Shown piece by piece: positions 28,402-50,338 of a stretch of DNA of 55,209 nucleotides. Location of the stretch: contig JAHLFB010000152.1 of the NCBI GenBank assembly GCA_018884025.1, forward strand, positions 1-55,209. Direction: 5' to 3'. The stretch is from Candidatus Phocaeicola faecipullorum. Lineage in GTDB: Bacteria; Bacteroidota; Bacteroidia; Bacteroidales; Bacteroidaceae. The position numbers were made by a program, and so were the translations under genes. The notes beneath the pieces are model-generated. The model searched no databases and was not told the origin of the DNA. It was given only the letters and a program-made list of their open reading frames with translations. Position 1 is the first letter of the stretch; each line of letters starts with the position of its first letter.

Positions 28402-28412
28402 TATTTATTTAC

Positions 28413-28500
28413 CGTTACACGTTCGTGTTACGCTCGTTGCACGTACGTGTTACACGCGTTACACCTTCGTGTTCCACCCGTTACACGTACGTGTAACGCC
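28413..28500. repeat. Four 22-bp tandem repeats, each a near-palindrome
   Basis: Four units of exactly 22 bp occupy 28413-28434, 28435-28456, 28457-28478 and 28479-28500. The core is CGTTACACGTACGTGTAACG. In the last unit this 20-mer is a perfect palindrome, and the others differ at a few positions. The array starts 9 bp after the stop codon of the minus-strand YfhO-type gene and precedes its terminator, so it would be in that gene's 3' untranslated RNA. There are no spacers and no cas genes, so it is not a CRISPR array. Confidence 0.9.
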
Positions 28501-41263: not shown

Positions 41264-41599
41264 TTAAAATACCGCTACAGATTTCCGTATATTATCCAAA
41301 ATGGCAGACAACTTGCTATCATGTCTAGCTATCTGCATATTATATGCAGACTGCATATTAATCCAAATATAAGCAGGAATGTCTGTTGCCGCTTCTATCT
41401 TAAGAGCCGTATCTGTAGTTATAGGTCTTTTGCAATTTATAATCTCATTAAATGCAGTATATGCCATACCTATAATAGCAGCAAATTTACGTTGCGAAAT
41501 ACCACGCGCCTCAAGTTCATCTTTAAGCATCTCTCCGGGATGTATCGGTATAGATGGAACCAATTCATGTGGGGCATAAATTTTCTTTGATGTATCCAT
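41264..41599 (-). CDS. higA: HigA-family antitoxin (HTH, XRE type)
   Basis: A 111-residue antitoxin. IPIHPGEMLKDELEARGISQRKFAAIIGMAYTAFNEIINCKRPITTDTALKIEAATDIPAYIWINMQ is the classic HigA/VapI helix-turn-helix domain (about residues 17-85). The rest is a short C-terminal extension. It should neutralise the HigB toxin encoded 6 bp upstream and repress the shared promoter. The toxin-first order is typical of higBA, and the gene length is normal. Confidence 0.93.
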   Translation of the reverse strand: MDTSKKIYAPHELVPSIPIHPGEMLKDELEARGISQRKFAAIIGMAYTAFNEIINCKRPITTDTALKIEAATDIPAYIWINMQSAYNMQIARHDSKLSAILDNIRKSVAVF

Positions 41600-41605
41600 A
41601 TTTAC

Positions 41606-41923
41606 TTATTTATAATGGTTACTTATATCCAATAATCGACATACAGTTATTATCTGCTCGCCCATTTCTTCTCTTACCGTAAACTCAAGACGATACTTAC
41701 GGTTTACTCTAACTGACGAAATACCTTCCTTATCTCCATGCAACGCCTCATAATTCAAAGCATTGAAACGGAATAAATCTGTTATGGTATTAGCTGAAAT
41801 AATAGTAAACACAGCTTTCTGGTATCCTCTTATAACCTCTGGCTGATAACGGTGTTTTCTATCATTCGTATGACCATTTTCAAACAGTTCACGCAGATAT
41901 TCTTTGTCAAACTCAATATACAT
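41606..41923 (-). CDS. higB: HigB-family toxin (RelE/ParE superfamily)
   Basis: A 105-residue toxin. The RelE-like fold shows in the N-terminal helix KEYLRELFENGH, in VIRGYQKAVFTIISANTITDLFRFNALNYEALHGD, and in the strand pair ISSVRVNRKYRLEFTVREE and IITVCRLLDISNHYK. HigB toxins are ribosome-dependent mRNA interferases. Here the basic residues RVNRKYR would contact RNA. It is the first gene of the module, with promoter and a palindromic operator candidate just upstream. I see no disruption, so the module looks intact. Confidence 0.92.
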   Translation of the reverse strand: MYIEFDKEYLRELFENGHTNDRKHRYQPEVIRGYQKAVFTIISANTITDLFRFNALNYEALHGDKEGISSVRVNRKYRLEFTVREEMGEQIITVCRLLDISNHYK

Positions 41924-42015: not shown

Positions 42016-43061
42016 TCATATACTCCACCCCATTCTGAATAATCCTGCCATTCCGCTAAAATGTCCATTATGAACATAATGCAATGCAGGCTGAACGTAA
42101 AGGTTCTTCCTCAATTGAATTTTGCAGGTTAATTCCGATGCTACCTCATATTCTGTTGAGAAAGTTGCATATCCTACAAAAGCACCGGCTTCTATCTTTT
42201 TTCCAAGTTCTGCCAGTGAACCTATGCCGAAATAGTTTTTACATTCCGCATCCTTATACAGCAAACCTGAAGCCTGCAACAGCAAATAAACCTTGTCTGA
42301 TAATTTCCGTTCAGCATATCCCCATAACACTCCGTTCACTTTATTTTCTTTTTTCTGTTCCGGAAGTTCTTCAGTTCCCTCCACATCAGAAACACTGACG
42401 CTGCTACATACAGCACCGCCCATATAATAACAGCCAACATCATTAGTATAGTTTAAAGAAGTTACACCTATCACTCCATCAGAAGACGGACAGAAACGAA
42501 ACACATTATCTCTTCCCCAAAAGTTTTTATACCCTTTTCCATTATATACAGAAACCTCAAAGTCTATTTTATCGACAATTTATAATCTATTCCCAAAGAG
42601 GCACAAGGATAATTGGCCAAAGGATAATTTACCGACAATGTAGGAAATATCCCGCATGAACTGTTGGTAAACAAAGAAGTTACAGGAGATGTAAAATAAT
42701 CCTCATTAAGATTTCTGACACCTATGAAAAGTGCAGAAGCACCGTTTTTCCATTCCAGCCCTATCACAGCAGGAGCCAATGGAGTATTTTCCTCTTCTAT
42801 ATTTGAAAATGTAAGTCTGCCGTCCATCAATCCGTCAGCCGTTGTTTCCGAAATACTTACCGTAGCCATGGCGAAACTTATATTACGCACCGGACTGTAT
42901 GTAAAATCTGTACGAAGTAGATTAACCCAGTTAACTTTCTTACGGAAATCAGTCTGCATTTCTGTAGTATATTCCATTCCGAAATCCGTATTACCGGCAT
43001 TAAGGTGGAGGGTGCCAATTATCAAGGCACCCACCATCATTCTTATTCTTTTTACTGTCAT
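42016..43061 (-). pseudogene. OprB-like carbohydrate porin, interrupted by one frameshift
   Basis: Two adjacent reading frames together encode one beta-barrel porin. The N-terminal part (ATG at 43061, stop at 42564) has a signal peptide (MTVKRIRMMVGALIIGTLHLNAG) and strands including SALFIGVRNLNEDYFTSPVTSLFTNSSCG. It ends IDYKLSIK and stops. In the next frame the sequence continues as DKIDFEVSVYNGKGY, NFWGRDNVFRFCPSSDG and on to the C-terminal MAGLFRMGW at 42016. Adding one base in TCGAT near 42572 restores IDYKLSDKIDFEV, so a single-base deletion is the simplest cause. The start lies 18 bp after the mgtA stop, so it is in the mgtA transcript. It may be a pseudogene, a recent lesion or a sequencing error. 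Confidence 0.82.
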
Positions 43062-43079
43062 TTCCCATTCAATTTTCAA

Positions 43080-45725
43080 TTATAACCATTTTACAAATTT
43101 TCTTATATACCAGTTCTTTATCATCTGTGTGAGAACACAGTAGGACAACAATATTCCGAATAGCCATGGGAAATAACTCAAAGGCAACGGCTGTAATCCT
43201 ATGGCACTTCCGAAACTGCTGAAAGGTATGAACAGACCGATGGCAACAATTATCACTGTTAGGCATCCGACCTGCCAGGATGAACGGCTCTGTATAAAAG
43301 GTATCTTGCGGGTTCTTATCATGTGTACAATAAGAGTCTGCGACAACAGTCCTTCTACAAACCAGCCAGACTGGAACAAAGCCTGATGCTCCACAGAATT
43401 ACATCCGAAGACATACCACATCACTACATATGTAAGTATGTCGAATATGGAGCTTATAGGTCCTATATACATCATGAAACGACTCAAATCAGAAGCATCC
43501 CAACGACGAGGTTTCTTTAGATACTCCGCATCCATCTTGTCAAAAGGTATTGTAGTCTGCGATACGTCATACAGCAAATTCTGTATCAGCAGATGAATAG
43601 GCATCATAGGCAGGAAAGGCAAGAACGCACTAGCAGCCATCACACTGAACATATTACCGAAGTTGGAACTTGCAGTCATCTTTATATACTTTGTAATATT
43701 CCCGAAAGTCTTTCTGCCTTCAAGCACTCCGTCTTCAAGAACCATTAGATCCTTTTCCAACAGGATGATATCCGCACTCTCCTTGGCAATATCAACAGCG
43801 GAATCAACAGATATACCTATATCCGACTGGCGCAATGCTGCCGCATCATTTATTCCGTCTCCAAGGAAACCTACCGTATTATCCTGCTCTTGAAGAAGGG
43901 TTATGATACGTGTCTTCTGCATCGGTGTAAGCTTTGAGAATACAGTAGCTCTGGCTACGGCAGTTCTCTGCTCTTCATCTGACATTGAATCGAATTCCGG
44001 TCCGGTAACAGAATTTGCAGTGTCAATACCTACCTGACGGGCGATGGTACGCACAACGGCATCATTGTCTCCGGAAAGTACTTTCACCTCTACACCATGT
44101 TCATGCAACTGACGTATAGCATTAGCTGCCGATGGTTTCGATGGGTCAAGGAAAGCCAGATATCCTATCAGAACCATATCGTTTTCATCGTCAATACAGA
44201 AATCAGATTCTTTATCAAGAAAGCTCTTCTGAGCCACAGCTATCACCCTCATTCCCTGACGGTTCATTCTCTCACTTATCTCGCGTGCCTTATCCTTCAA
44301 TTCTACAGTCAGCGGATGTACGTCACCGGCAAATTCGGCATGCGAGCATATTTCCAGCATTTCTTCTACCGCTCCCTTTGTTATAATCTGACGCTTCCCC
44401 TGAGTATCCTCCACAACTACCGACATGCGGCGACGTGTAAAATCGAAAGGTATTTCATCTACTTTACGGTAATTATCTTTCAGATATTCAAGCGAAAGGT
44501 CTTTCACGTGCGAAAGAATAGCCTTGTCCATAAGGTTTTTCAGTCCGGTCTGGAAAAAACTATTGAAATAGGCATGACGCAGGATACGCTTGTTCTCGTC
44601 GTTGCTGCCATCGGCATTGATATATTTTTCAAGGACTATCTGGTCGCAAGTCAATGTACCGGTCTTGTCCGTACACAGAATGTTCATTGCTCCGAAATTC
44701 TGAATGGCATTAAGGTCTTTCACGATGGTTTTCTTTTTCGACATAGCAACGGCTCCTTTAGACAAGTTGGCAGTAACAATCATAGGAAGCATCTCAGGAG
44801 TAAGGCCTACAGCCACAGATACTGCAAATATGAAAGCCTCAAGCCAATCGCCTTTGGTAATACCGTTAACAAGAAAAACAAAAGGAATCATCACAAGCAT
44901 AAAGCGTATGAGCAGGAAGCTGACCTTACTGATACCCTTGTCGAAGGCTGTAGCGGCACGATGTCCTGCTATACTGCGCGCAATAGTGCCAAGATATGTA
45001 TTATTCCCTGTAGCAATGACTATACCTACACCGGAACCGCTCACCACATTGGAACCAATGAAACAGATATTACCCAGTTCCACCACACTGCCACTCTTTG
45101 CGCCCTTACAGTCCGGTGTTTTTTCTATAGGATCCGATTCTCCAGTCAGCGATGCCTGACTTACAAACAGGTCTTTAGCCTCAACAATTCGCACATCGGC
45201 AGGAATCATATCTCCGGCAGCTATTCTCACTACATCTCCCGGAACAAGCTCCGTAATGCTTATCTCGCATGTATCGTCATCGTCCTGCCTTATTACACTG
45301 CAGGTATTGGTTACCATCTTCAGCAAGGCTTCACTAGATACATTTGCTTTCCACTCCTGCCAAAAACGTAGTATCGAACTTGACACAACCATTACAGATA
45401 TGATTATTATGGCAGTCCAGTCCTGCTCACCAGGAGCAGCAAGAGCCACATCAAGAATAAACGAAACAATGACCAATATAGTTAAAACACCTATAAACGG
45501 ATTTATGAATGCCTTGACAAAAACTGATATAGGATTTTTCTTTTTCTCATGTTCCACCTCGTTCACGCCATACTCGGAACGGCGGATTTCCACTTCTTCA
45601 GCAGAAAGCCCTCGCGGGTTAGTCTGAAAATAGTTGAATACTGAGCCTACAGGCTGTGAAGCAGCAAGAAATACTTTCTCTGCATTAAAAGCTGAATTTG
45701 GTCCGAATTTTTTCTTCCTCAACAT
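43080..45725 (-). CDS. mgtA: Magnesium-translocating P-type ATPase (MgtA/MgtB family)
   Basis: An 881-residue type IIIB P-type ATPase that imports Mg2+ across the inner membrane at the cost of ATP. The phosphorylation motif CTDKTGTLT places Asp353. The actuator loop has SLTGESDPIEKTP, the hinge has FLGDGINDAAALRQSDIGISV, and the membrane part carries VGLTPEMLPMIVTANLSKGA and FLPFLPMMPIHLLIQNLLYD, the latter specific to Mg ATPases. About ten transmembrane helices are present and the length fits. The porin reading frame follows within 20 bp. Upstream lies a -7 element and a striking array of five 11-bp-phased TTCTAA sites, probably bound by the response regulator encoded just beyond. Confidence 0.95.
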   Translation of the reverse strand: MLRKKKFGPNSAFNAEKVFLAASQPVGSVFNYFQTNPRGLSAEEVEIRRSEYGVNEVEHEKKKNPISVFVKAFINPFIGVLTILVIVSFILDVALAAPGEQDWTAIIIISVMVVSSSILRFWQEWKANVSSEALLKMVTNTCSVIRQDDDDTCEISITELVPGDVVRIAAGDMIPADVRIVEAKDLFVSQASLTGESDPIEKTPDCKGAKSGSVVELGNICFIGSNVVSGSGVGIVIATGNNTYLGTIARSIAGHRAATAFDKGISKVSFLLIRFMLVMIPFVFLVNGITKGDWLEAFIFAVSVAVGLTPEMLPMIVTANLSKGAVAMSKKKTIVKDLNAIQNFGAMNILCTDKTGTLTCDQIVLEKYINADGSNDENKRILRHAYFNSFFQTGLKNLMDKAILSHVKDLSLEYLKDNYRKVDEIPFDFTRRRMSVVVEDTQGKRQIITKGAVEEMLEICSHAEFAGDVHPLTVELKDKAREISERMNRQGMRVIAVAQKSFLDKESDFCIDDENDMVLIGYLAFLDPSKPSAANAIRQLHEHGVEVKVLSGDNDAVVRTIARQVGIDTANSVTGPEFDSMSDEEQRTAVARATVFSKLTPMQKTRIITLLQEQDNTVGFLGDGINDAAALRQSDIGISVDSAVDIAKESADIILLEKDLMVLEDGVLEGRKTFGNITKYIKMTASSNFGNMFSVMAASAFLPFLPMMPIHLLIQNLLYDVSQTTIPFDKMDAEYLKKPRRWDASDLSRFMMYIGPISSIFDILTYVVMWYVFGCNSVEHQALFQSGWFVEGLLSQTLIVHMIRTRKIPFIQSRSSWQVGCLTVIIVAIGLFIPFSSFGSAIGLQPLPLSYFPWLFGILLSYCVLTQMIKNWYIRKFVKWL

Positions 45726-45772: not shown

Positions 45773-45781
45773 GCAAAGGTA
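45773..45781 (-). promoter_or_regulatory. -7 promoter element for mgtA
   Basis: On the minus strand TACCTTTGC matches TAnnTTTGC, 48 bp before the mgtA ATG. No -33 TTTG is present at the expected place. That position is covered by the TTCTAA repeat array, as expected for an activator-dependent promoter. Confidence 0.65.
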
Positions 45782-45793
45782 GTTTGGAGACGT

Positions 45794-45843
45794 TTAGAAC
45801 AGTGTTAGAAGACTATTAGAACGGTATTAGAATTCCATTAGAA
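45794..45843 (-). promoter_or_regulatory. Five perfect TTCTAA direct repeats at 11-bp spacing (candidate response-regulator operator)
   Basis: Read on the plus strand, TTAGAA occurs at 45794, 45805, 45816, 45827 and 45838, each exactly 11 bp from the last. On the mgtA coding strand the unit is TTCTAA-N5. The N5 spacers are unrelated to each other. A degenerate sixth copy (TTTAAA) sits at 45849. The array starts 12 bp upstream of the mgtA -7 element. OmpR/PhoB-family regulators bind direct hexamer repeats with 11-bp spacing, and one such regulator is encoded close by. The binding protein is inferred. Confidence 0.8.
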
Positions 45844-45849
45844 TGATGT

Positions 45850-47220
45850 TTAAAGATGCTCCATTTCAACCACGAATGTTGTTCCCTTTCCCTCATCAGA
45901 CAATACGTTTATTTTACCCTGATGAAGATTTATTATCTTCTGGGCCAGGGCCATACCTATACCATGACCTGCCGCAACATGTTCCTGCTTACCTCTGTAA
46001 AACAGTTTGAACATGTTCTGCCGCTCATCATCGGAGAGCCCTGCTCCATTGTCGGACATGCGGACTACTGTCCATTTGTCCCAAAACGAAATCTGCACAA
46101 ATGAAGCCCTGTCCGGTGAGTACTTGCAATTATTCTCTATCAGATTTGAGAAAGCGATACTGAGAAGATATGAGTTTCCGCTGACGGTGACAAAACGGTC
46201 ATCATCCGTTTCCTGTTCATCAAAAACCAGTTCAATTTTATATTCAGGGTGTGCCCTGAGAATACATTCGCGCACATCAAGCAGAAGTTCGTCAAGACGT
46301 ATTTCCTGCATACTTATCTGCTCCTTACTATAATCAGCCTTGGCAAGATTAAGCAGTCCGTCTATCAGACTATTCATCCTGCGCGCATCGTTCATCACAT
46401 TGTCAAGCGCATCCCTGTACTGCTGCGGAGTACGCTCTTTCTGAAGTGTTATTCCCAGCTCTGCCATCAAAGCCGCAAGCGGAGTACGCAGTTCGTGCGA
46501 CACATTACTTACAAACATCTTCTGCGAATTGAAAGACTCTTCAAGCCTTGAAAGCAAATCGTTGAAAGTAGTTGCCAGTTCGCCAAGTTCATCCTTTTCG
46601 TTCTTGACAGGCAAGCGGCGACTGATGCTTGTAGCTGTGATATTCTCAGCCTCTGCCACAATATCACGGATTGGCTTTAATGCCGCACGCGAAAGATAAT
46701 ATCCTGAAACGAACAAAAGACTCAGTCCGATAACAAACAATACTATAAGTGCATTAAGAAGAGAGGAGAGATTATCATATCCATATCCGTCGTACGCAGC
46801 AGCTGTGACTACATATTTCCTTCCTCCATAGTCATAAAGCATACCTATACACTGATAACCGTCAACATAAAACTCCATATCGCCATCAGCCACTATGGTC
46901 TGTATCATAGCGCTGTCCTCCTTTATTATATCATTCTGCACTGCGTCGTGATAGAGCATAAGGAATGAAGTGTCATACACAGCCACCTCCACTTCATTAA
47001 TAAATTTGCGGTTATTAAGATAGATAGACTGCATCACTTCCGAGTTCACCTGCCCTCCCAAGAAGAGATGGGCCTTGGTGACAGCCTCGCTCCTGAGGTC
47101 ATGAAAAAAAGTTTTGCTCCGGATATGCTCGCTCGCCACATATACCAATGACAAGCATAGCGCAAAAACAGCTGCCGTTACAAGCGAATTTTTAAGAGTA
47201 AGTGCGGTTCTTATCTTCAT
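45850..47220 (-). CDS. Sensor histidine kinase with periplasmic sensor and HAMP domain
   Basis: A 456-residue inner-membrane kinase. The first transmembrane helix covers about 12-30 and the second about 155-178. Between them lies a periplasmic sensor of about 125 residues, rich in acidic groups (FFHDLRSE, AVQNDIIKEDSAM, VADGDMEFYVDG). A HAMP domain (about 178-232) leads to HisKA with VSHELRTPLAAL, phosphorylated at His242, and a HATPase_c domain (about 330-455) with LIENNCKYSPD, DNGAGLSDDE and HVAAGHGIGMALAQKI. It overlaps the regulator gene by 4 bp, so the pair is translationally coupled. The signal is unknown. The acidic sensor and the neighbouring mgtA suggest divalent cations, by analogy with PhoQ. 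Confidence 0.94.
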   Translation of the reverse strand: MKIRTALTLKNSLVTAAVFALCLSLVYVASEHIRSKTFFHDLRSEAVTKAHLFLGGQVNSEVMQSIYLNNRKFINEVEVAVYDTSFLMLYHDAVQNDIIKEDSAMIQTIVADGDMEFYVDGYQCIGMLYDYGGRKYVVTAAAYDGYGYDNLSSLLNALIVLFVIGLSLLFVSGYYLSRAALKPIRDIVAEAENITATSISRRLPVKNEKDELGELATTFNDLLSRLEESFNSQKMFVSNVSHELRTPLAALMAELGITLQKERTPQQYRDALDNVMNDARRMNSLIDGLLNLAKADYSKEQISMQEIRLDELLLDVRECILRAHPEYKIELVFDEQETDDDRFVTVSGNSYLLSIAFSNLIENNCKYSPDRASFVQISFWDKWTVVRMSDNGAGLSDDERQNMFKLFYRGKQEHVAAGHGIGMALAQKIINLHQGKINVLSDEGKGTTFVVEMEHL

Positions 47221-47906
47221 AGCGGTTTATCTGTCAGAATAAATCCCATTCCTGGTTTTGTGTGTATAAGTTTTGTATCGAAATCCTTGTCTATCTTTTT
47301 GCGCAGATAGTTTATATAGACATCAATGAAGTTTGTTCCCGTGTCGAAATGCGTGTTCCATACCTTCTCTGCTATCTCCATACGGCTTATCACCCTTTCC
47401 GTATTTTCCACCATATAGACAAATAGGTTATATTCCTTAGGAGACAGTTTTATCTGCATCCCGTTTCTCGTTACTTCGCATGTATTAAGATTGATTGATA
47501 TGTCAGAATATGATACAGAGTCCGGTCTTACAGTCTGTGGCGATGAATACCTTTTTAGCAATACCCTGATACGTGCGTTAAGTTCCCTGAAATCAAATGG
47601 CTTCAACATATAGTCGTCTGCTCCGGCATCAAAACCATCAAGTTTATCATCGGTAGAACCAAGAGCCGTAAGCATAAGCACCGGTACATCCGGATTGATT
47701 TTCCTTATCTCCTTGCATAGTCCAAAACCGTCAAGCCCGGGAAGAACAATATCCGAGATTACCAGATGAAACTCATTTGAACGGAACAAACGCAAGCCCA
47801 TCTCTCCATCGTATGCCACCATCACACTATAGCCATTCTCCTCAAGTCCGGCTTTCAGAAGGTCGGCTACACGCTTCTCATCTTCTACTATCAATATACT
47901 TTGCAT
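47217..47906 (-). CDS. OmpR-family response regulator
   Basis: A 229-residue two-component regulator. The receiver domain (1-120) has the acidic pocket Glu8-Asp9, the phosphoacceptor Asp52 in HLVISDIVLPG, the conserved Thr in MLTALGS and Lys in MLKPFD. The winged-helix DNA-binding domain (about 135-225) has LSPKEYNLFVYMVENTERVISRMEIAEKVW and the recognition region FIDVYINYLRKKID. It is closest in style to the CusR/CopR/RprY group. It is encoded between a TonB receptor and its kinase. It is the natural candidate to bind the 11-bp-phased TTCTAA repeats in front of mgtA. Confidence 0.95.
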   Translation of the reverse strand: MQSILIVEDEKRVADLLKAGLEENGYSVMVAYDGEMGLRLFRSNEFHLVISDIVLPGLDGFGLCKEIRKINPDVPVLMLTALGSTDDKLDGFDAGADDYMLKPFDFRELNARIRVLLKRYSSPQTVRPDSVSYSDISINLNTCEVTRNGMQIKLSPKEYNLFVYMVENTERVISRMEIAEKVWNTHFDTGTNFIDVYINYLRKKIDKDFDTKLIHTKPGMGFILTDKPL

Positions 47907-47977: not shown

Positions 47978-50338
47978 TTAATACTCGAATGTTATTCCAA
48001 TAGTAGGCAACAATGTTCCGCTTTCCATCTTTATACTCTTCATCACATAATGTCCAGGACGTTCAGGATCTTCCACTCCGGTACTCATAAGAGCATCTGC
48101 CTGACGGAGTTTACTGGCTGTAATATTCTGTATATCCAGATAGAAACCCAACATACATTTCTTAAGATAGAATGTCTTGTCAACCCTTACATCCAATTGT
48201 CCGAATGCCGGCAAACGCTCCATATTATAACGGCTATAGTCATAGTAAGCGCGTCCCTGTACATTCCATGCCTCTATAAGTGACGATTTTTCTTCATCGT
48301 ATGGAGTATATGGCGAACCGCCGATTGCACATACACGCATACCGACACTCCAGTTCTTTGGCAGGTTATATGTTCCGCTCATATTGAATATAAACCTGTT
48401 GTCCCAAGCTGAAGGTACATAATCATTGTCCTTAACCGACTTAAACTCACTCCTGAAGAAAGTAAGTGAAGAAGAGAGGTTTAGTTTCTTAGCCAACAAC
48501 CATTTGAACATGATTTCCACACCATATGAACGGCCTTCTGCATCTGATACAAGCAATTCATTACCGATAACTCCATAATCGTTTCCCTTGCATGATAGCG
48601 GTATATTGTCGGCTACTGAAAGAGGCATATTGTTATATTTCTTATAAAATCCTTCAGCAGAAACTTCCATAGTCTCTGTAGGATTCCACGTCAACCCAAT
48701 ACTTTCCTGAGTTACTGAAGTATAGTCAAGATTTTTATTGACATACACGCCATCATTATCCTTATATCCCAAAGCTGTATATGCAGGGAGCTGATAATAA
48801 AGCCCCATATGACCACTAAGATAAAGCCCGTCTGTCAAACGATATGATACTGACATACGTGGCGAAAGCTGTCTCCATAATTCTTTCATCTTGTCACTGT
48901 AATTATTGCCGTCGGTTCTTAATCCCAACGAAGCAGTGAACTTCTCATCAAACGATTTATAATCCGCAGAAGCATATATACCCCATCTAAGCATATTAAG
49001 GGTGGTATTATAATTAAACTCACGCAGGATATCAGAGAAAACCTTCTGATATGTATCATTTGTGTAATGGGAATAATTCAATTCAAATCCGGCATTGACT
49101 TTCCATGAACTCCATTCAGATGTATTCTCAACACGAAGCTTGGTCTCCTGCTCAACAGAGCCCAAATCAAGATTAAGATTGTCCGGGTTGCTGTCATCAT
49201 TGTCCTGATATTTGAAGTTCCGGTTATGAAGATAACTATGGCTTAATGTAACAGACTGTACATGATTACCAGAATAATGACGGTAAACACCTCCCAAGGT
49301 AAATGTTTCCTGTTCTATTGTAGGTAAATAACTTAACAGATATTCCGCATAATCACTGTCTATATCCATATTCAATTTCATACGGTCCAGCCCACCCAAG
49401 CCTAAAACTGTCAGTTCATTTTTATCGTTGAACCTTGTTTTAATTTTAAAAGAAGCATCTGTATATGCCGGCAGAAACGGAAGGCCCAGAACCTTGAACA
49501 ACATCTGTAAATACGACTGCCTTACTGACACAAGATAAGAAGTCTTGTCGCCTATATGTCCATTAGAACTTAAAGAAACTTCTGATGCGCCTAGAGTAGC
49601 TTTAAGCGAATTGCGTTCCATACTTCCGTCACGAAGGCTAAAATCCAGAACCGAACTCAAGGCATTTCCTCTATCAGCCGGAAAAGCTCCGCTATAGAAT
49701 TTAACATTGCGTATCAAGTCTGCATCAATTAGTCCTACAGGTCCACCGGATGCACCTTGAGTACTGAAATGATTTATATTAGGGATTTCAACTCCATCCA
49801 AATAAAATCTGTTTTCAGAAGGGCCACCACCACGAACTATAAGGTCATTCCTATACCCTATAGGAGAAAATGCTACTCCAGGATAATTTTGTACAACACG
49901 CGATATGTCCCGGTTGGCACCCGGCGCTTTTTCTATTTCCTGAAGTCCTATAACTCTCAAGCTGACAGGACTCTCGGCCACTCTTCGGAAAGGAGATGCT
50001 GTAACAGTCACTTCAGATATAGCTGTACTTTCTTCCTCCATCTCTATATTGATATGAGGTGTAATATGATTAACTCTGTACTCTTCTGTAAAAACAGTTT
50101 TATAACCTATGGTAGAAGCTCTCAACTGATATATACCGGGAGGTACGGAATTAATTGTAAAATTTCCATTTATATCCGTTGACGCACCTATATTCAGTCC
50201 TACAACCAATATATTAACAAATTCCAAAGGCTCACGCGTAGTTTTGCTTACAACAGTTCCTTTTATCTGATAATTTTGGGCAAACATCACCAAGGAAAGG
50301 ACCGAAAAAATAAGTCCACCGATAAATCTTCTAACCAT
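47978..50338 (-). CDS. TonB-dependent receptor with carboxypeptidase-regulatory-like domain
   Basis: A 786-residue outer-membrane receptor. The signal peptide (FIGGLIFSVLSLVMFAQ) precedes a carboxypeptidase-regulatory-like domain (IKGTVVSKTTREPLEFVNILV, about 22-105), a plug (about 115-225) with RDISRVVQNYPGVAFSPIGYRNDLIVRGGGPSENRFYLDGVEIPNINHF, and a barrel ending LLPTIGITFEY. There is no SusD partner. It is the first gene of a minus-strand unit with the response regulator (71 bp downstream) and kinase. In Bacteroidetes such receptors often take up metal complexes or peptides. Regulation by the adjacent two-component system is inferred from synteny. Substrate unknown. Confidence 0.92.
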   Translation of the reverse strand: MVRRFIGGLIFSVLSLVMFAQNYQIKGTVVSKTTREPLEFVNILVVGLNIGASTDINGNFTINSVPPGIYQLRASTIGYKTVFTEEYRVNHITPHINIEMEEESTAISEVTVTASPFRRVAESPVSLRVIGLQEIEKAPGANRDISRVVQNYPGVAFSPIGYRNDLIVRGGGPSENRFYLDGVEIPNINHFSTQGASGGPVGLIDADLIRNVKFYSGAFPADRGNALSSVLDFSLRDGSMERNSLKATLGASEVSLSSNGHIGDKTSYLVSVRQSYLQMLFKVLGLPFLPAYTDASFKIKTRFNDKNELTVLGLGGLDRMKLNMDIDSDYAEYLLSYLPTIEQETFTLGGVYRHYSGNHVQSVTLSHSYLHNRNFKYQDNDDSNPDNLNLDLGSVEQETKLRVENTSEWSSWKVNAGFELNYSHYTNDTYQKVFSDILREFNYNTTLNMLRWGIYASADYKSFDEKFTASLGLRTDGNNYSDKMKELWRQLSPRMSVSYRLTDGLYLSGHMGLYYQLPAYTALGYKDNDGVYVNKNLDYTSVTQESIGLTWNPTETMEVSAEGFYKKYNNMPLSVADNIPLSCKGNDYGVIGNELLVSDAEGRSYGVEIMFKWLLAKKLNLSSSLTFFRSEFKSVKDNDYVPSAWDNRFIFNMSGTYNLPKNWSVGMRVCAIGGSPYTPYDEEKSSLIEAWNVQGRAYYDYSRYNMERLPAFGQLDVRVDKTFYLKKCMLGFYLDIQNITASKLRQADALMSTGVEDPERPGHYVMKSIKMESGTLLPTIGITFEY

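Follow-up and report, generated by a model that had tools for sequence, protein, structure and literature searches.

A phased TTCTAA array upstream of mgtA as the probable operator of an adjacent OmpR/PhoB-family two-component system in Bacteroidota

Enteric PhoP/PhoQ controls mgtA and mgtC genes through direct hexamers spaced by 11 bp, and Bacillus subtilis PhoP uses four repeats; together with the PhoB box of Escherichia coli, these sites represent operators built of direct hexamer or heptamer repeats about 11 bp apart, lying beside or over the −35 region of class II promoters. To our knowledge, two-component operators and Mg2+ control have been little described in Bacteroidota. An excerpt of PMC3413638 places the tandem repeats bound by most OmpR/PhoB regulators at the −35 region, and an excerpt of PMC7380067 describes binding of direct repeats by many of these regulators, with variable sequence, number and spacing; according to the same excerpt, the sites of CopR, PcoR and AgrR are inverted repeats of about 16 bp, those of AgrR being ATTACA-type, and an in-phase direct repeat may be added to them. 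The housekeeping promoter consensus of Bacteroidota is given in parts of two further papers as −33 TTTG and −7 TAnnTTTG (PMC7366714, PMC12632263); the same part of the former reports finding no −33 motif in Flavobacterium johnsoniae, so an absent −33 is less telling in that class. Among the matches listed in a search of full-text literature, which holds few subscription papers, there was no description of the motif presented here or of an mgtA regulator in Bacteroidota, and mgtA of Bacteroides thetaiotaomicron (BT0988) appears in an iron-response table in the excerpted part of PMC10434189.

The window, that is, the whole stretch of 55,209 nt analysed here, carries five TTCTAA hexamers on the mgtA strand (TTAGAA on the plus strand) in the gap between the stop codon of a histidine kinase (HK) gene and mgtA, every interval between successive copies being 11 bp (Table 1). 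The coordinates confirmed this exact spacing, as stated in the original prediction, and shuffled sequences scored far below the array: with units scored as YTCTAAY per 11 bp, four units reached 28 of 28 in the window against a maximum of 22 when the whole window was dinucleotide-shuffled 200 times, and five units reached 34 of 35 against a maximum of 27 in the same shuffles. A repeat arisen by chance or replication slippage was ruled out by these scores and by the conservation in other classes described below, and an RNA element was ruled out as well, since the array does not fold (z=−0.47). Throughout the genome of origin (3.82 Mb searched, 86% complete), two exact adjacent units occurred at four places within the mgtA array and at one place elsewhere (C55), the reversed control giving three. 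The −7 element of mgtA is present at 45774-45781, one base off the span of 45773-45781 first proposed; the −33 slot contains no TTTG, as had been stated. The mgtA promoter shares the standard −7 element of Bacteroidota housekeeping promoters and differs from them in lacking a −33, with the operator abutting that slot. A TTTAAA sequence at 45849-45854, put forward as a degenerate copy of the hexamer, does exist, but it overlaps the HK stop codon (45850-45852) and hence need not be an operator copy.

Table 1. Features of the mgtA locus and examples of look-alike arrays in the same genome. Coordinates are those of the window except where a locus is named.
Feature	Position	Strand	Basis
OprB-like porin gene downstream of mgtA, frame broken into two ORFs (42016-42504, 42564-43079)	42016..43079	-	ORFs, relatives
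mgtA, Mg2+-translocating P-type ATPase, putative target	43080..45725	-	TIGR01524, 1262 bits against a cutoff of 611
−7 promoter element TACCTTTG (TAnnTTTG) of mgtA	45774..45781	-	match to Bacteroidota consensus
23-bp interval, hexamer 4 to −7	45782..45804	-	same length in 52 of 57 array loci
Extra fifth TTCTAA, over −33 slot, 12 bp from −7	45794..45799	-	common to L026-L028
TTCTAA hexamer 4 of conserved four, 23 bp short of −7 element	45805..45810	-	promoter-distance alignment
TTCTAA hexamer 3 of conserved four	45816..45821	-	sequence and relatives
TTCTAA hexamer 2 of conserved four	45827..45832	-	sequence and relatives
TTCTAA hexamer 1 of conserved four, promoter-distal	45838..45843	-	also kept in relatives
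Sensor histidine kinase (HK); HAMP, HisKA, HATPase_c; predicted PAS/PDC-like sensor	45850..47220	-	domain models and predicted fold
OmpR/PhoB-family response regulator (RR), putative array binder; recognition helix NFIDVYINYLRKK from residue 192	47217..47906	-	domain models
TonB-dependent receptor gene directly upstream of RR gene	47978..50338	-	
TTYRAA-YRNYR arrays, own genome, examples	L106:6266-6353, L107:6155-6209, L108:5783-5848, L109:6671-6714, L110:6282-6391		

The array resembles an OmpR/PhoB-class operator in having at least two direct repeats that recur about every 11 bp on one face of the helix, and the response regulator (RR) encoded next to it has the domains of that class, a receiver (PF00072) and a winged-helix Trans_reg_C domain (PF00486), which bears out its assignment to the OmpR family. 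The best NCBIfam models of the two proteins belong to heavy-metal systems, TIGR01387 (CzcR/CopR/CusR/AgrR) for the RR, with 217.5 bits against a curated cutoff of 279.2, and TIGR01386 (CzcS/CopS) for the HK, likewise below its curated cutoff. RND efflux genes are putative targets in many relatives, which would be a further likeness to CzcR/CopR/CusR/AgrR regulators, whereas the scores below cutoff, the mgtA target in Bacteroidales and the operator of four direct repeats, in place of the inverted repeat of about 16 bp of the CzcR/CopR type, set the system apart from them. Enteric PhoP/PhoQ models were outside the best 25 of 98 NCBIfam families for the RR and of 82 for the HK. The locus resembles the PhoP/PhoQ regulon as a two-component system with mgtA or mgtC behind direct hexamers spaced by 11 bp, and differs from it in the hexamer itself and in the families on which RR and HK score best; we regard the system as a putative analogue of PhoP/PhoQ by function. 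Relative to the direct-repeat operators already known, what differs here is the TTCTAAY unit, the number of four to five units and the distance of 23 bp to a Bacteroidota −7 element, and the mgtA array would be a new member of this known kind. An alignment of 35 sensors shows Y90, D92, D97 and E101 of the HK sensor without variation and H91 and K100 with almost none, and these residues (Y90 H91 D92, D97, K100 E101) would suit a divalent metal. The sensor was predicted to adopt a PAS/PDC-like structure (mean pLDDT 83), and a fold search of this domain gave weak matches, two with E≤0.001, PAS-type domains being among the better ones.

Conservation was evaluated in the best 80 of 504 confirmed RR-relative candidate loci, of which 57 qualified as array loci by a four-unit score of at least 24 of 28; in most of these 57 the array lies beside the RR-HK pair. 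Alignment of every locus on the fourth unit of its best array placed a −7 element (NAnnTTYG) exactly 23 bp past that unit in 52 of the 57 array loci, 43 of them with exact TAnnTTTG, while each of the other gaps from 10 to 39 bp had a count of 0, 1 or 2. The five loci off 23 bp comprise two at 22 bp (L055, L062) and three without a fit (L080, L103, L104). Several classes of Bacteroidota have in common a module of the form (YTCTAAY-N4)x4, 23 bp and then the −7 element, and its fixed position beside the −35/−33 region is that of OmpR/PhoB-class operators. Information content over 40 array loci of L026-L071 was 1.76 bits per base within the hexamers, as against 0.55 for the N4 spacers and 0.19 for the upstream flank. 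Since it is the hexamer at 45805 that stands 23 bp from the −7 in the window, the copies from 45805 to 45843 are the conserved four and the copy at 45794 is a lineage-specific, promoter-proximal addition, which was not seen in the more distant mgtA-locus relatives compared. The five phased sites of the original prediction are therefore right for the lineage of the window, but four is the conserved rule.

The same row at the same promoter distance in many Bacteroidota with this kind of RR makes the array very probably the docking site of the adjacent RR. Class II activation is suggested by the lack of a −33, by the constant 23 bp and by the placing of the array against the −33 slot. We consider it likely, with a probability of roughly 85%, that the two-component system encoded alongside uses the array as its operator and switches mgtA on in this way. 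Two RR dimers would occupy the four half-sites, with the fifth half-site of the window over the −33 slot; the bound RR would keep RNA polymerase on a promoter that has a good −7 but lacks a −33, the distance of 23 bp from half-site four to the −7 setting the polymerase contact, and mgtA would be turned on. We propose periplasmic Mg2+ shortage or divalent-cation balance as the signal. Direct binding, activation rather than repression, and the nature of the signal (Mg2+ or another metal) are what we infer from these arrangements. Repression by the RR, with the bound array keeping polymerase from the −33 region, would be consistent with the fifth copy of the window lineage lying over the −33 slot, but this is unlikely: a promoter with no −33 element and a constant 23 bp to the −7 is what an activator would be expected to have, and a repressor site need not hold exact phase.

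Between operator and −7 element, 11 of the 57 loci have a terminator-like hairpin (z below −2 against 100 mononucleotide shuffles); these include L033, L038, L049, L050, L051, L052, L067 and L069, and in several a T-rich run that holds the −7 follows. The nested hairpin looks like a terminator of the upstream transcript placed within the promoter. As a conserved feature of the module it was partly rejected, being limited to the 11 loci and absent from the window.

Turning to the genes controlled, mgtA was found on 15 of the 17 loci L026-L042 (in two pieces in L027 and L033), and in 14 of these 15 it is preceded by an array of three to five phased TCTAAT-type units, the remaining one, L030, having an N gap there. 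Of the first genes downstream of the array in the 57 loci, 14 encode MgtA, 9 MgtC, 10 an RND membrane-fusion protein, 8 an outer-membrane efflux protein, 14 (one split) a porin-like protein of 442 aa and 2 another product; a part of an RND system hence comes first in 18 of the 57 array loci, the window locus not being one of them. Genes for MgtE, Mntp and DUF190 proteins lie farther down some array-led operons. Outside Bacteroidales, like arrays are found behind the RR-HK pair or in divergent orientation to it, and the genes they precede are those for MgtC, RND efflux or porin-like proteins. We take MgtA, MgtC and MgtE to be Mg2+ genes, as is established. In a Leyella locus (L035, about 1840-1930), a single gap holds two four-unit arrays in opposite orientation, which face mgtA and a divergent mgtC-like gene, respectively, each with a −7 at 23 bp.

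These targets go beyond the original prediction, which had concerned mgtA: the recurrence of the module supports a role of the operator at MgtC, RND efflux and outer-membrane genes as well, and the RR family most likely governs MgtC, CzcA/CusA-type efflux and outer-membrane genes in addition to mgtA. On a wider scale, the module may define an Mg2+/divalent-cation regulon present throughout the Bacteroidota, equivalent in function to PhoPQ though derived from a different kinase/regulator lineage, in which import by MgtA, MgtC and MgtE would be coupled to CzcA/CusA-type RND efflux of competing metals through one rigid arrangement of four phased half-sites and 23 bp; lineages would add half-sites (five here) to tune the output and swap targets behind an unchanged operator. 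We regard this proposal as evenly balanced between right and wrong. A variant of the main reading, and not exclusive with it, keeps the array as the operator of this RR but has the kinase sense excess transition metal or another envelope stress in a CzcS-like manner, the Mg2+ genes having been recruited secondarily. Its appeal lies in the best scores of kinase and RR on models of heavy-metal two-component systems, in the many CzcA/CusA-type efflux genes among the family's targets and in the conserved His-Asp pair of the sensor (H91 D92) besides the acidic residues; on the other side, mgtA is first behind the array at the window locus and at 13-14 further loci (three near-identical relatives), and MgtC and MgtE recur among the targets. 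Such a signal is a serious possibility, if the less favoured one. Four phased hexamers and the 23-bp promoter distance make candidate regulon members readable from sequence in many Bacteroidota, and the module gives hypotheses for uncharacterised efflux and porin operons; it also offers a clean system in which to study the effect of half-site number and phase on activation of promoters that lack a −33.

The association between array and RR was also assessed in surveys of whole genomes. In a survey of 395 genomes of the phylum that made no use of the RR, a pattern of four units, 23 bp and ANNTTTG (at most one mismatch) gave 18 matches in 15 genomes, the reversed pattern having no match. The genes that come first after these 18 matches encode MgtA (2), MgtC (5), RND-efflux components (6), porin-like proteins (3), an Omp85-like protein (1) and a TonB-receptor-like (TonB-plug) protein (1), and an HK or RR gene lies within 1.5 kb of 12 of them. 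With RR-positive genomes defined by E≤1e-70 (25 of 395), strict arrays were present in 13 of the 25 RR-positive and in 2 of the 370 RR-negative genomes (Fisher test P=7e-16, with kinship among genomes ignored). In the two RR-negative genomes with an array, G105 and G608, the RR relatives reach just 46-49% identity. The 12 RR-positive genomes without a strict match were searched again with up to three mismatches, whereby two gained an array (G165, and G684 right behind the HK); this looser search covered these 12 genomes and not the 370 RR-negative ones, so the two rates are not comparable. In the other ten no array was found at up to three mismatches; eight of them have RRs of 49-55% identity, two of these (G643, G732) with a TTTTAAT-type array near an RR, and the remaining two (G725, with its RR near a contig end, and G631) have RRs of 57%.

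A second survey covered 151 genomes of the family, with RR at E≤1e-60, mgtA at E≤1e-200 and arrays at up to two mismatches, and identified the RR in 13 genomes, mgtA in 10 and the array in 13, array and RR occurring together in 10; arrays were thus found in 10 of 13 RR-positive genomes and in 3 of 138 others. With RRs of at least 55% identity, a cut picked after the list had been seen, the counts were 9 of 11 and 4 of 140 (Fisher test P=4e-10, kinship again ignored). The three array-only genomes (G210, G227, G340) had no RR at E≤1e-45, and their matches look by eye like simple tandem repeats and are therefore taken as unrelated. In eight of the 151 genomes mgtA occurs together with an RR of at least 55% identity, the two being adjacent in all eight; upstream of mgtA, four or five units were found in six of the eight and about two in G205 and G232. 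The loss of the array before mgtA in genomes that keep the regulator, which would have spoken against the original prediction, was thus not what we observed. Another genome, G254, has mgtA with two units and no RR at E≤1e-45, and no array was found in G345, whose mgtA is the most divergent (52%; RR 47%). That the array is the operator of its neighbouring regulator is accordingly supported at the level of sequence comparison, with the RR family appearing to carry it across Bacteroidota at 23 bp from the −7. A variant operator with a TTATAA-type third unit was observed in L132, L137, L122, L111, L124 and L125 (family genomes G165, G250, G224 and G199; RR 47-57%). Five of the six loci carry YTACAA behind the fourth unit, the −7 is at 23-24 bp, and G165 has the variant at several places; it probably represents a regulon with other targets.

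The recognition helix of the RR and the third base of the operator unit were found to vary together. Among 44 RRs with helix NFIDVYINYLRKK (that of the window counted), 38 have an array by a relaxed score, and unit position 3 is C in 146 units and T in 4; three groups of RRs with helices NVIEVY[M/I/V]NFLRKK have a TTTTAAT operator, with T in 51 units and C in 1. Weak T-type arrays in L086 and L094 may be due to chance. Helix NYIDVYIAYLRKK goes with a mixed position 3 (C 43, T 13), and there are exceptions, namely L104 (helix NVIDVYVNYLRNK) with four TTCTAAT units (C 4) and L080 (helix NIIEVYVNYLRKK) with C 3 and T 1. Since the clades are few, the covariation supports recognition of the array by the RR and does not amount to proof. 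Binding by a regulator other than the adjacent RR would accommodate the two array genomes that have distant RRs alone (G105, G608) and the ten RR-positive genomes without an array, but it appears quite improbable given that the presence and absence of the array follow the RR in the phylum sample, that most of the 57 array loci have the array next to the RR-HK pair and that the operator varies with the recognition helix.

The 23 RR loci that scored below 24 include the clade with the TTTTAAT operator and six loci of helix NFIDVYINYLRKK (L029, L030, L041, L043, L044, L061). Whole genomes were searched with up to three mismatches for these six and for L094 and L102, all eight having no array in the fetched RR locus, and arrays of the right geometry were found in all eight genomes (12 matches; reversed control 0). 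Four of the 12 matches precede MgtA, three MgtC (one behind a 75-aa ORF) and three RND-system efflux genes; of the remaining two, one is the divergent partner of another match and one lies before an unrelated gene. One of the 12, the L209 match with three mismatches, looks like chance. For L041 and L043 the arrays of the genome are on the same contig, 1-2 kb past the fetched stretch, so that elsewhere means nearby, and since L094 and L102 carry NVIEVY-type RRs, the arrays in their genomes may serve a paralogue. In G307, a gene homologous to the porin gene found elsewhere behind mgtA is located on another contig with its own array, and TACTTTTG lies at exactly 23 bp. At the window locus this porin gene consists of two ORFs, while in the relative L027 it is a single frame of 349 aa, and the window copy looks interrupted. 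No array-like sites were seen by eye upstream of the RR gene, nor was an array seen by eye upstream of the TonB-receptor gene. Downstream of the mgtA operon (41264-41923, minus strand) are two small adjacent ORFs that by eye resemble a HigA-type antitoxin and a RelE/HigB-type toxin.

The genome of the window contains a second family of repeats with an 11-bp period, made of self-complementary TTYRAA-YRNYR units. A search of this genome for TTCNAAYRNYR units with up to two mismatches gave 57 overlapping matches (reversed control 0), four of which come from the mgtA array because TTCTAA fits at one to two mismatches. The other arrays examined (examples in Table 1) are intergenic, often just past gene 3′ ends; three were folded and formed strong long hairpins (z from −5.3 to −9.4), and the family is possibly one of terminators or a repeat element. 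The notion that these arrays are further operators of this RR was rejected, as they are palindromes and the three folded ones strong hairpins. Conversely, the mgtA array might belong to this dispersed hairpin family and be no operator, since it has the same period in the same genome and also lies just past a gene end; this is extremely improbable, because the mgtA array is unfolded whereas the three others gave z of −8.0, −5.3 and −9.4, TTCTAA is not self-complementary and has all copies in one direction, and the mgtA array recurs with its 23-bp geometry in other classes. Elsewhere in the window, at 28412-28494, a 22-bp unit (CCGTTACACGTACGTGTTACAC) is repeated 3.8 times and is partly palindromic by eye.
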